Shown: positions 56,651 to 63,187 of the stretch, piece by piece
Numbering within the stretch: the first letter of the stretch is position 1
Layout of the letters: each line of letters begins with the position of its first letter
NCBI GenBank assembly: GCA_015522685.1
Contig: WALU01000049.1
Location: 22,441-86,440, forward strand
DNA: 64,000 nucleotides
Source of the DNA: Thermoproteota archaeon
GTDB lineage: Archaea > Korarchaeota > Korarchaeia > Korarchaeales > Korarchaeaceae
Reading direction: 5' to 3'
Notes under the pieces: model-generated
What the model saw: only the letters and a program-made list of their open reading frames with translations
Databases searched by the model: none
What the model was told of the DNA's origin: nothing
Made by a program: the position numbers and the translations under genes

Positions 56651-57055
56651 GTGGCGCATATTTTTACATGTATGCCTTCGCAATCAGCTGGTGAAAGTTT
56701 AATGGTGGAAGTTACCCTCAAATCCATTAGGCAGGATCCAGCATTCGAGCTAGATGTACTAAGATTTTCCTCGGAGAACGACTCTCTTACATTAACGTTG
56801 GAGCTCCCAAAGGGATTCTTAATCCTTAAAAAAGGATCTAAAGCAGTCCTGATTATAGGAGAGGAGGGAGAAGGAGATCTAGTGATGAAAGGCCACGTCT
56901 ATAGAGCAGATACTAATTCAAGACAGGTAGAGATATCATTCCATGGACTTTGGCTTAGAATGACCTATAAGAGTTCCCTACCATTCAAATTAATGGAAGG
57001 ACAGGATGTATATCTCACAATGAGATTCATAAATGGTTTATCAATAAAAAATTAA
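56651..57055 (+). CDS. Hypothetical protein (134 aa)
   Basis: Coding composition; ORF track. Confidence 0.55.
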   Translation: MAHIFTCMPSQSAGESLMVEVTLKSIRQDPAFELDVLRFSSENDSLTLTLELPKGFLILKKGSKAVLIIGEEGEGDLVMKGHVYRADTNSRQVEISFHGLWLRMTYKSSLPFKLMEGQDVYLTMRFINGLSIKN

Positions 57056-57122
57056 TGTGATTATGAAATTTTTATTTTACTTTCATGCAAGAAATATTAA
57101 TATTTTTGAATAAGTATTTAGA

Positions 57123-57869
57123 GTGATGCATGAAAGGACGTGTCCTCTCTGTGGTTCTCCCTTAGTTAGGGAGAATGGTCTGCTTGTGTGTAGTAACTGC
57201 GGTTACATTGTGAGTGAAGAATTGCTACCAAGCAGATTTGATGGAGCTTATTATATCAAAGAAGATGAATTTAGATCAATAAATGATATAGTCTCCAGAC
57301 TAAATTTACCTAGCGAGGTTTCTAACATGGCTAAAGAAATAATATTGAATTATGAGGCCAGTACAGGCAAAAAAGTGACTCTATCTATGCTTATTGCCTC
57401 TGTGATAATCTCAGCCAGATTGTATGACATACCTATACCGATTAAAGAGGCCAGCAGGAAATATCCAAGAGTATCCCCTTCTCATCTAGCCTTAACCATC
57501 GGTGTGTTGGAAGATGAGCTCCCAAAGAAGGAAGGTGTACCGTGGGAAGGCTATATCAATTATCTCATTAGAAAACTGTCTCGGGATGAGAGAGTTATAG
57601 AGATCCTCAAACAATCTTCTGGAAAATTACCTCTGCAGATAATAATAGAGAGACTCAGGATAAACTCTATAAGAGAGATGAGAAGAGTAAAGAAGGATAG
57701 TAGATCTCGTATGGTAGGTAGAAACCCTATATACATCGCTGCTGCAATAGTTTACATAACTGGCAAGAAGATAGGTATAAGAGGGCTGTCTCAAGGCCTA
57801 ATGGCAGATGCCCTAGGTGCGAATAGATCTACCATCTCTAAAGCGTTAGTGGTGGTGAGAAGGGATTGA
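57123..57869 (+). CDS. Divergent TFB/TFIIB-like transcription factor
   Basis: Zn ribbon CPLCGSPLVRENGLLVCSNCGYIVSEE; two cyclin-like folds; HTH-like GLMADALGANRSTISKALVVVRR. Confidence 0.75.
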   Translation: MMHERTCPLCGSPLVRENGLLVCSNCGYIVSEELLPSRFDGAYYIKEDEFRSINDIVSRLNLPSEVSNMAKEIILNYEASTGKKVTLSMLIASVIISARLYDIPIPIKEASRKYPRVSPSHLALTIGVLEDELPKKEGVPWEGYINYLIRKLSRDERVIEILKQSSGKLPLQIIIERLRINSIREMRRVKKDSRSRMVGRNPIYIAAAIVYITGKKIGIRGLSQGLMADALGANRSTISKALVVVRRD

Positions 57870-58018
57870 ATTATGAGGAGATTATGTTTGAGATAGAGAC
57901 CATCTCCCATCAAATAGAGTTTCTCTTCTTTAAGCTTGATGATTTGATGAAGAGGATAAGCAACATTGAAAGTAGGCTGAATACCATTGAAAAGAGGATG
58001 GACCTTGAGATTAGGTAG
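57866..58018 (+). CDS. Small coiled-coil ORF (about 50 aa)
   Basis: TTG start overlaps the TFB stop: LNYEEIMFEIETISHQIEFLFFKLDDLMKRISNIESRLNTIEKRMDLEIR*; overlaps the HerA ORF. Confidence 0.5.
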   Translation: MNYEEIMFEIETISHQIEFLFFKLDDLMKRISNIESRLNTIEKRMDLEIR

Positions 58019-59723
58019 AGAAAACGTTTCGATAATCCTCGCAATAATCCTACTAACTATTACTTATGTGTATAAGCGACTGAATTTAATTCTATCTATT
58101 GTAAGTAAATACCAGCTCATTCTAAGTGCTTCATTAGCTCTAGCACTGATTTCTTTAGCTGTACTCTTAAGTAGGAGAAAGATTTATGGCTCTACCCCAC
58201 TTCAAAACGCATTGACCGTGGAATCTAGAGGAAGAAGATATCTGATTCTTCCAACTGAATTAGAAGTCGAAGAACAGAGCGCGCAGTTAGATCTCAAAAA
58301 AGTAAAGGGTATCATAGAGAGTATGAATGTTGGAATGTCCCTCCTAGTAACACAGTGGTCAGGCAGAAGATTCTTCAATCAGATAGTAGGAGGAGGGATT
58401 AGTACTAAGCTGTTACTATGGTCTCCTCTAGGAGATCTCAATGAAGCGGAAAACTCTCTTAAGGCTACTCTTTCTGCTCTCAATAGTTCAATAGAGGGAA
58501 TTAGACTGAAGATTGATGAAAACTTCTCAATTGATCCGGAGGCGCTATCTGGGATATTAAATTTGAGCAAAGGATCAGAAAATCTTGAGGGTATAGCATT
58601 TGGAAGAGAAGAGAAAAAAGATCTGCCTATGCTGGAGATAGGTGAGCATAAAGGAAAGGTTATTGGCATCCCCTTGGCGGATATATCAAGGCATATCCTG
58701 ATCGTAGGTCAGACAGGTTCTGGTAAAACTACAACATCCAAGAGGATAGTATACGAAGCATGGAATTTAGGAATACCCTCTCTCGTCCTAGATATACATT
58801 GGGAGTATAAATCTCTGATTTTCCAGCTTGGAGGTAAGATCTTTACAACGAAGGGAGGATTACCTAACATATGCATAAATCCCCTTGCGGAAATTCACAA
58901 GAGCAGCGAGAAGGAGATATTTTTACTCTCTGAAACTCTATCTAATATCCTAGACTTGACCCCCTCTCAATTTTATTTCCTAATGAACGGTCTCAAAAGG
59001 ATTAGAGATCAGGCATTAGATGGTAGCGCTCCCTCAATGAAAGATCTGGTATCTGAGCTTAAGGAGATGAGGCTAGCTTCACAGGCAGAGGAAGAGAGTA
59101 GAGCTTCATTAGTCAGAAAGCTCGACCCAATTATCATGTCAGAAGGAGCTGATATATTCAATTATGATAACCTAAGTATCGAGGAGATAGGTGGCTCTCT
59201 CTCCCTCATTGACATAGGGGATATAAGAAGCGATATCTTAAAGCAGTTAGTGATATTCTTCATCTTAAGAAGGATAAAAGATAGATTTGTGAGAGAGGAA
59301 GGGAAAGCTCTCTATCCAAGGATGCTTATAGTTATAGAAGAGGCTGAAAAACTCATACCACATTATAGCGATGTTACTGGAATGAATATAATCGACAGAT
59401 TGTTCTCAGAGCTGAGGAAGTTTGGAGTTTCCTTGGTACTAATAACTCAAAGCCTAACAGATATCCCGGAGGGAGTAGTGAGAAATACTGGAACCAAAAT
59501 ATACCATAGAGTCGAATCACCCTCAGATTTGAGGGCCCTCAAATCTATTCTGGGAGAGAAGAAACTTCTGAACCTAGTAACATCCCTCTCGCAAGGAGAG
59601 TGCCTTGTTGTAACCTCAAGCTCAGTGTATAGGGCAATGGTTTCCTCTGTAGAGGAAAGATCAATAGATGCTAAGGCCATAGAGAGAATCTTGAGGTATA
59701 CTCCTTTCTATTGGCCATCTTGA
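57987..59723 (+). CDS. Membrane-anchored HerA/VirB4-type ATPase
   Basis: Two N-terminal TM segments; HILIVGQTGSGKTTTSKRIVYEAW, MLIVIEEAEKLIPHYSD, ELRKFGVSLVLITQSLTDIPEGVVRNTGTKIYHRV. Confidence 0.8.
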   Translation: MKRGWTLRLGRENVSIILAIILLTITYVYKRLNLILSIVSKYQLILSASLALALISLAVLLSRRKIYGSTPLQNALTVESRGRRYLILPTELEVEEQSAQLDLKKVKGIIESMNVGMSLLVTQWSGRRFFNQIVGGGISTKLLLWSPLGDLNEAENSLKATLSALNSSIEGIRLKIDENFSIDPEALSGILNLSKGSENLEGIAFGREEKKDLPMLEIGEHKGKVIGIPLADISRHILIVGQTGSGKTTTSKRIVYEAWNLGIPSLVLDIHWEYKSLIFQLGGKIFTTKGGLPNICINPLAEIHKSSEKEIFLLSETLSNILDLTPSQFYFLMNGLKRIRDQALDGSAPSMKDLVSELKEMRLASQAEEESRASLVRKLDPIIMSEGADIFNYDNLSIEEIGGSLSLIDIGDIRSDILKQLVIFFILRRIKDRFVREEGKALYPRMLIVIEEAEKLIPHYSDVTGMNIIDRLFSELRKFGVSLVLITQSLTDIPEGVVRNTGTKIYHRVESPSDLRALKSILGEKKLLNLVTSLSQGECLVVTSSSVYRAMVSSVEERSIDAKAIERILRYTPFYWPS

Positions 59724-60262
59724 GGCAAAGAATCGATTATTGATATGAAGTCTGAGGACCAGTTAAATCTCCCTAATTCTCTCCTCTTCCTTCCCCTTAA
59801 AAAATCTAAAACTACCCTAATCTCATCATCTGGCTTACTTTCACATCCATCTACTTCTACTATCCGTTCCCTTCCTATTATTACTAAGGCATCATAAACA
59901 GGACCATCTATCACTTCATACTCTATATTCTCTCTTATTTTACCTAGAGAATACCCCCTAGACCTCAATCTTTCCAAAAGGATTGAAGGTCTGCATCTAA
60001 TTACTACAGTGATTATTACGAGATCCTTCGGTATCGCGTTAGGGGAAATCGTTTCAACAACTAAGCATTTATTATCAACCAACTTTTTTATCTCTTCTGT
60101 GATTGGTACTTCATCTAAAATGAGAGAATTTCTTTTATGATCGATTCCTAAGATGAATCCCCTCTCCTTAGCCAATGATCCAACGTTTAGATAGTCGCAT
60201 CTTATCTTCGATGCTAGTCTCTTGGCCAATATTGTCTTGCCAGAACCTGGAGTTCCTATCAC
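59708..60262 (-). CDS. Adenylate kinase-like NTPase (AK6/Fap7 family)
   Basis: VIGTPGSGKTILAKRLASKIRCDYLNVGSLAKERGF; the listed ORF start overlaps tRNA-Glu, so the start was moved to in-frame GTG at 60262 (uncertain). Confidence 0.75.
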   Translation of the reverse strand: MIGTPGSGKTILAKRLASKIRCDYLNVGSLAKERGFILGIDHKRNSLILDEVPITEEIKKLVDNKCLVVETISPNAIPKDLVIITVVIRCRPSILLERLRSRGYSLGKIRENIEYEVIDGPVYDALVIIGRERIVEVDGCESKPDDEIRVVLDFLRGRKRRELGRFNWSSDFISIIDSLPQDGQ

Positions 60263-60333
60263 AACAATTATCCCATGGGGCTTATCTTCTCTCGAGAAAT
60301 GTTTATATTCCCTATATCCATTCCATGCCTTAG

Positions 60334-60408
60334 GCTCCGGTGGTGTAGCCCGGCTAAGCATAGGGGCCTCTCGAGCCCCAGACCTGGGTTCAAATCCCGG
60401 CCGGAGCA
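60334..60408 (+). tRNA. tRNA-Glu (anticodon CTC)
   Basis: GCTCCGG/CCGGAGC acceptor, GGGGC-CTCTCGA-GCCCC anticodon arm, TTCAAAT T loop. Confidence 0.93.
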
Positions 60409-60426
60409 TCATTTTTATCTACTCAC

Positions 60427-62563: not shown

Positions 62564-63187
62564 ATGATTCTTCCCATGTTGGTAAGTAAGCAGTTAGAGT
62601 TAGCTCGCGATGAGCTAGAGCGTCTGAATTCATTAAGGGAGGAAGCAATGAAGCTGTCAAGGAAATGGCTTTCTCTCTGCAGAAATTCGATCCTGAAAGC
62701 TAGGGAGAAGAGGGAATTGGGTCATGTAGAGGACCAGCTGAGGTCTATGATAGAGGAAGTCAATAAATTTCTCAGAAGATGCACACTGCAGTTAGGCTAC
62801 CTCGATAGTTCCGTAAGATCCTTGATTTCTGACTCTCTCCAAGAGGCAGTAGAAGGTATAGCCCTAGCGAGGTTTCTAAGGGGAATGGAAATACCTAGTC
62901 ATAAGGAGCTCAATGTTAGCCCCAGGGAATATGTACTAGGAATTGGAGATGCCGTAGGAGAGCTTAGGAGAGTAGCTCTCCAGCTTTTAATAGAAAGGAA
63001 AATAACTGATGCCGAGAAACTGGTATCATATATGGACGAGATATATGAAAACCTAAACTCTATGGTATTTCCTGATTCGCTTCTGCCTGTAAGAAGGAAG
63101 GCTGATGTCGCTAGATCTCTTATAGAGAAGACTCTCTCTGAGATTATTATGATGAAAACTTCCACCGAGGTAAGAAGCGATGAGTAG
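62564..63187 (+). CDS. Translin-family protein
   Basis: All-helical; ..VEGIALARFLRGMEIPSHKELNVSPREYVLGIGDAVGELRRVALQ, the translin signature. Confidence 0.82.
   Translation: MILPMLVSKQLELARDELERLNSLREEAMKLSRKWLSLCRNSILKAREKRELGHVEDQLRSMIEEVNKFLRRCTLQLGYLDSSVRSLISDSLQEAVEGIALARFLRGMEIPSHKELNVSPREYVLGIGDAVGELRRVALQLLIERKITDAEKLVSYMDEIYENLNSMVFPDSLLPVRRKADVARSLIEKTLSEIIMMKTSTEVRSDE

Follow-up and report, generated by a model that had tools for sequence, protein, structure and literature searches.

The locus analysed here raises the question of why a relative of the transcription factor TFB should be encoded in one overlapping array with a membrane ATPase. The window, by which we mean the whole 64,000-nucleotide stretch of DNA that was analysed, lies on contig C49 of an archaeal MAG of 1.48 Mb (G000), which we take to belong to the genus Korarchaeum. 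In an initial annotation, three genes had been described: a TFB-like gene, a coiled-coil ORF of about 50 codons starting on its stop codon, and an ATPase with two N-terminal TM segments whose gene overlaps that ORF. All three ORFs are present, and two N-terminal hydrophobic segments were found in the ATPase. Beyond these genes, RpoG/Rpb8 immediately precedes the array, and a Fap7-type kinase gene converges on it from the other side. The initial annotation had inferred a possible DNA-translocation or DNA-damage module linked to an alternative TFB, which our analysis supports in part. Our reading, to which we give a probability of roughly 55%, is that the array represents a korarchaeal DNA-translocase operon of the CedD type, equipped with a regulator of its own that derives from TFB and with a coiled-coil protein as partner.

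All genes of the unit are on the + strand. The gene for the RpoG/Rpb8 subunit of RNA polymerase (56651..57055; Pfam RNA_pol_RpbG, 2.1e-5), which the RpoG profile places next to the TFB gene in korarchaeial loci, is followed by an intergenic promoter region (57056..57125) and by the gene for the divergent TFB paralog, here called TFB' (57126..57869). The longest ORF of the latter is 57123-57869, with the ATG at 57126 as the likelier start. Next comes the gene for the 50-aa coiled-coil protein (57866..58018), which overlaps TFB' by 4 bp and the ATPase gene by 14 bp; similarly tight spacings are found in relatives. The ATPase (58005..59723) consists of an N-terminal TM hairpin, an N-terminal domain and a C-terminal ATPase domain. 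Its longest ORF is 57987-59723, but we placed the start at TTG 58005 because relatives with an ATG start point to this position. The Fap7-type AAA_18 kinase (59708..60412, - strand; Pfam AAA_18, 2e-22) is convergent with the array, and such a kinase adjoins CedD in many Thermoproteota. A tRNA-Glu gene (60334-60408, +) overlaps the 5' end of this kinase ORF, the first ~25 residues of which are antisense read-through of the tRNA; the true Fap7 start lies downstream of that stretch. Further along, a Translin-family protein (62564-63187; Pfam 9e-10) is syntenic in most korarchaeial relatives.

For the ATPase, CedD is the best curated NCBIfam family, with 151.6 bits (3e-44) as compared to 61.3 for TraC, 52.9 for CedB (2e-14) and 49.7 for HerA. 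Yet this score is far under the equivalog cut-off of 600 for NF053655, and the protein is therefore a distant member or a sister of the family rather than a certified CedD. The initial annotation had seen a HerA/CedB-like membrane ATPase. The ATPase does belong with the Ced-type pumps and not with unrelated families, but scores and motifs place it closest to CedD and led us to reject CedB: the 52.9 bits are to be compared with a cut-off of 700 for NF041017, the Walker B sequence is IEEAEK and not DEAW, and an RKFG motif is present that is common to the ATPase, CedD and HerA and absent in CedB. The Walker A motif reads GQTGSGKT. A TM hairpin at the N-terminus is shared by the ATPase, CedD and CedB, and is absent in NurA-type HerA. 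With CedD, the DNA-import ATPase of Sulfolobales (SSO0283/SiRe_1715 family, arCOG00286), the window ATPase has in common the complete succession of TM hairpin, N-terminal domain and C-terminal HerA/VirB4-like ATPase, including RKFG. The surroundings are also alike, as the cedD locus is near a thermosome gene and has RpoG and Fap7 close by in other Thermoproteota, two genes that also accompany the window ATPase. The two differ in that the window gene overlaps a coiled-coil gene after TFB' and that the partner CedB was not found, at E<1e-30, in G000 or in the same-genus genome G009, presumably Ca. Korarchaeum cryptofilum OPF8. A 2010 paper had already drawn attention to the SSO0283 ATPase family and to its S17e-Urm1-thermosome context (PMC2948915), and CedD has been found to be UV-induced and needed for DNA import in Sulfolobales (PMC11868833).

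In phylogenetic trees the ATPase is separate from the HerA clade. The backbone connecting the korarchaeal sequences, Sulfolobales CedD and the CedD-like proteins of other Thermoproteota is unsettled: a grouping of all three was not rejected (p-AU 0.243), and one tree sets the korarchaeal sequences weakly with the long CedB branch (74/89). The HerA_C and DUF87 domains (Pfam), together with PDB matches that are mostly HerA-type proteins, could also indicate a HerA helicase of the usual end-resection type, or an FtsK/HerA-type pump for chromosome segregation, that has nothing to do with DNA exchange. This is very improbable in our view, given the TM hairpin and the CedD score of the ATPase, the separate clade (starred) formed by the HerA sequences, and a second gene in the genome, on contig C16 (L134), that encodes a HerA without N-terminal TM hairpin and adjoins a Mre11-like ORF. 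Hairpin, position outside the HerA clade and the existence of this separate HerA likewise led us to reject an assignment as NurA-type HerA. A defence gene was also considered and discarded, as PADLOC matches were to generic HerA-type proteins and the neighbourhood does not support a defence system. The AlphaFold model of the ATPase was set aside (mean pLDDT 45). Several Korarchaeum genomes additionally encode a HerA-like protein of ~850 aa (L139, L140; G015:C48, G001:C9).

The small ORF between TFB' and the ATPase had been suggested as a novel partner in the initial annotation. It recurs, with a LFFK-type coiled-coil motif, in all Korarchaeum loci that hold the stretch, and the FFK-centred motif of the protein is kept (e.g. 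NQIEYLFFKLDE). Seven pairs gave dN/dS ratios of 0.06-0.16, and one distant pair gave 0.32; in the pair formed by the window and G014, synonymous sites are saturated (pS 0.84, pN 0.11). Since most ratios are this low, the 50-aa ORF must be considered a gene, and a chance ORF is ruled out. Three korarchaeia at a greater distance (G022, G023 and G024) also have coiled-coil ORFs at this position, and in six others (G016, G017, G018, G020, G021 and G025) TFB' directly overlaps the ATPase ORF with no coiled-coil gene in between.

The single canonical two-repeat TFB of G000 is encoded on contig C35 and not on the window contig, and TFB' is therefore a second, divergent copy. Its Pfam matches are weak (TFIIB zinc ribbon, 2e-5; TFIIB repeat, 5.5e-4) and both are below the Pfam cut-offs, hence the designation as divergent. 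When aligned to canonical TFB, the protein is missing the B-reader and the linker and keeps both cyclin folds as well as a C-terminal HTH that can still be recognised despite the loss of the canonical VRNRYKEL tail. The AlphaFold model (mean pLDDT 75) predicts two cyclin folds with the helices of the C-terminal HTH. All best Foldseek matches are TFIIB (E=4e-7); the global TM-scores of these matches are low (0.36), which makes the relative orientation of the domains uncertain. Among 25 korarchaeial TFB' proteins, the zinc ribbon (CxxC...CxxC) is kept in 16, including that of the window, and absent in nine, which amounts to at least four losses on the tree. When both ribbon and reader are missing, a TFB would not be expected to work as an ordinary initiation factor. 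With no B-reader, repeats below the Pfam cut-off and a canonical TFB elsewhere in the genome, a general TFB is ruled out for TFB', and the alternative TFB of the initial annotation has withstood this comparison.

When 54 TFBs were placed in a tree, the canonical proteins, korarchaeal ones included, were divided from TFB' and the alternative TFBs linked to CedD by a branch supported at 100/99.9. Branch lengths indicate a much faster evolution of TFB' than of canonical TFB; as the branches are long, a shared fast rate may contribute to this grouping. Profile comparisons match TFB' to the alternative TFBs over the whole length (1.7e-32) and more weakly to canonical TFB (5e-25). The obvious point of reference is TFB3 of Sulfolobales, known for its damage-induced control of ups and ced genes. 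UV irradiation strongly induces TFB3, and cells depend on it to survive UV (PMC2246294, PMC6934391). Like TFB', it is an extra TFB copy with a zinc ribbon and no B-reader. However, TFB3 has ~170-190 aa and is devoid of the C-terminal HTH (PMC2246294), while TFB' has both cyclin folds and this HTH, and the TFB' of some species, unlike TFB3, is without zinc ribbon. The TFB3 profile matches TFB' over ~70 columns only and canonical TFB over more. Orthology with TFB3 would thus rest on position only, and an equation of the two by sequence was set aside. As regards position, the order in Sulfolobales is cedD, a convergent thermosome gene and tfb3, with RpoG ~2-3 kb further on; TFB3 is hence two genes away from cedD, convergent to it, and a few genes from RpoG, just as TFB' is close to a CedD-like gene and RpoG. 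Published locus tags agree with this order (SiRe_1715 for CedD, PMC11868833; SiRe_1716 for the thermosome, PMC7744417; SiRe_1717 for Tfb3, PMC10470591). Because tfb3 and cedD are only two genes apart, the analogy to TFB3 and Ced is stronger than was supposed in the initial annotation.

Within Korarchaeia the neighbourhood is conserved. Wherever one korarchaeial contig carries both genes, TFB' is found directly upstream of the ATPase, separated from it by the coiled-coil gene at most. This holds for the genus, for eight genomes from other genera of the family, for G024 from the same taxonomic order and for G025 from the same class. In G010, TFB' and the ATPase are on two contigs, each gene at a contig end, and the G004 contig breaks off inside the ATPase. 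RpoG is beside TFB' in all of these loci except that of G024. The wider neighbourhood is syntenic as well, and conservation by itself is therefore weak evidence of function. A purely positional explanation would accordingly see here an old informational cluster (TGT, LSm, RpoG, Fap7, thermosome), in which TFB' serves RpoG-related transcription and the ATPase has some other membrane role, the two sharing no pathway. In its favour, much of the wider neighbourhood is inherited in the same order, and a codirectional 'TFIIIB' next to RpoG in the first korarchaeote, as well as the RpoG-TFB pairing in Crenarchaeota, was noted by Koonin et al. 2007 without CedD (PMC2234397). That pair is the RpoG-TFB' pair described here; in the relevant part of the paper it is connected neither to CedD or DNA exchange nor to a coiled-coil gene. 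We also found no link of the RpoG-side alternative TFB to CedD in open-licence papers. In K. cryptofilum, however, the flanks are rearranged, with the Fap7-translin block on the other side of the array, and the four-gene unit of RpoG, TFB', coiled-coil gene and ATPase has stayed intact. The overlap of the three downstream genes, the separate conserved promoter-like region between RpoG and TFB', and the fact that distant families likewise combine alternative TFBs with CedD and genes for pilus ATPases also argue against mere inheritance of position, which we judge improbable.

The promoter region contains two BRE/TATA-like elements, each GAAA plus an AT-rich stretch, at 57064-57079 and 57090-57105, i.e. 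~26 bp apart. The upstream alignment shows them to be conserved in most Korarchaeum. Searches of six relatives gave one copy of the composite element per genome, at this locus only, and the consensus had no match in G000 or G014. As the element is restricted to this locus, a wider regulon was not seen, which suggests a dedicated promoter for TFB', the coiled-coil gene and CedD rather than a regulon-wide motif. One match to the ANTTTC UV-motif upstream of TFB' (ACTTTC near 57079) was left unused because it is not conserved in relatives.

The order RpoG-(alternative TFB)-CedD-Fap7-thermosome recurs in distant Thermoproteota. RpoG directly precedes CedD in G113, G203, G335, G349 and G425, and Fap7 and/or the thermosome gene follow CedD in nearly all of the loci examined from other Thermoproteota; the context of RpoG, Fap7 and thermosome around CedD is complete in G113, G335, G349 and G397. 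We take G203 to be Staphylothermus hellenicus and G349 to be Pyrolobus fumarii; G389 and G185 are presumably Aeropyrum pernix and Metallosphaera cuprina. After RpoG in G203, the N-terminal part of CedD and the ATPase part appear as two ORFs (L075:7294-8720). An alternative TFB is encoded several kilobases upstream of CedD and in the same orientation in 10 of the 20 neighbourhoods from other Thermoproteota, a co-occurrence with a probability of ~5e-10 by a rough chance estimate that ignores shared descent.

We propose that Korarchaeia have, in this array, their own version of an ancient locus of RpoG, alternative TFB and CedD. By analogy to CedD, the TM hairpin would anchor a ring-forming HerA/VirB4-like motor that threads DNA across the membrane, and the coiled-coil protein would be a small partner of this ATPase, probably produced by coupled translation. 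TFB' is a TFB paralog without the B-reader on which ordinary initiation depends. Most likely, it modulates its own operon and perhaps other DNA-exchange genes in the manner of TFB3, through contacts to TBP/DNA or to RNA polymerase, possibly at its own upstream promoter. For Korarchaeum, the sequences show the gene content, its conservation, the domain architecture and the kinship of ATPase and TFB'; we infer DNA translocation, regulation and a damage response from the Sulfolobales systems. The CedD score below the cut-off, the weak placement of the ATPase in the trees and the missing CedB count against this reading. That the zinc ribbon was lost on at least four occasions is unexpected if TFB' has to dock on RNA polymerase, and counts against a regulator. 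Alternatively, TFB' has left transcription altogether, its two cyclin folds serving, via the coiled-coil protein, to load DNA (or TBP-marked DNA) onto the membrane CedD pump or to hold it there, as part of one complex. Both cyclin folds and the place beside CedD were retained while the ribbon was repeatedly lost, TFB' evolves much faster than canonical TFB, and the 4-bp and 14-bp overlaps suggest coupled, stoichiometric synthesis. Gene overlaps are, however, common in archaeal operons, the C-terminal HTH of TFB' has remained recognisable even without its tail, and the conserved composite element upstream of TFB' also fits a regulator. We consider such a complex unlikely. Its most specific form, a TFIIB-fold protein recruited into a membrane DNA-translocation complex as a DNA loader derived from a basal factor, with the 50-aa coiled coil bridging to the CedD motor, is a still more tentative idea. 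If true, a structural role of TFB' in the pump would be more of a surprise than a regulatory one.

On our reading, Ced-type DNA-exchange ATPases, so far described in Crenarchaeota, would extend to Korarchaeia. The array also suggests that the connection between an alternative TFB and a DNA-exchange pump known from TFB3 of Sulfolobales may predate the split of these lineages. The array offers a defined gene unit for asking how DNA transfer came to involve a basal transcription factor, and the conserved 50-aa protein is a candidate connector. Several uncultured families carry, next to CedD, both an alternative TFB and type-IV-pilus genes. A gene for a T2SSE-type pilus ATPase is present in the ten loci with an alternative TFB upstream of CedD and in an eleventh, G345, where the TFB-like match is just outside the stretch examined. 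These loci (G397, G421, G300 and others) match the window in the order and the genomic context of their alternative TFB and CedD genes. They differ in having the T2SSE-type ATPase and membrane or pilin-like genes between TFB and CedD, where korarchaeia have the coiled-coil gene or nothing. Loci of this type are candidates for complete single-locus DNA-exchange systems. In three loci of uncultured Thermoproteota (L095:1577-9808, L084:8103-16091 and L082:2771-10322), alternative TFB, T2SSE-type ATPase, small T2SSF- or pilin-like membrane proteins and CedD are all encoded, possibly as a complete exchange system of pilus plus DNA pump.
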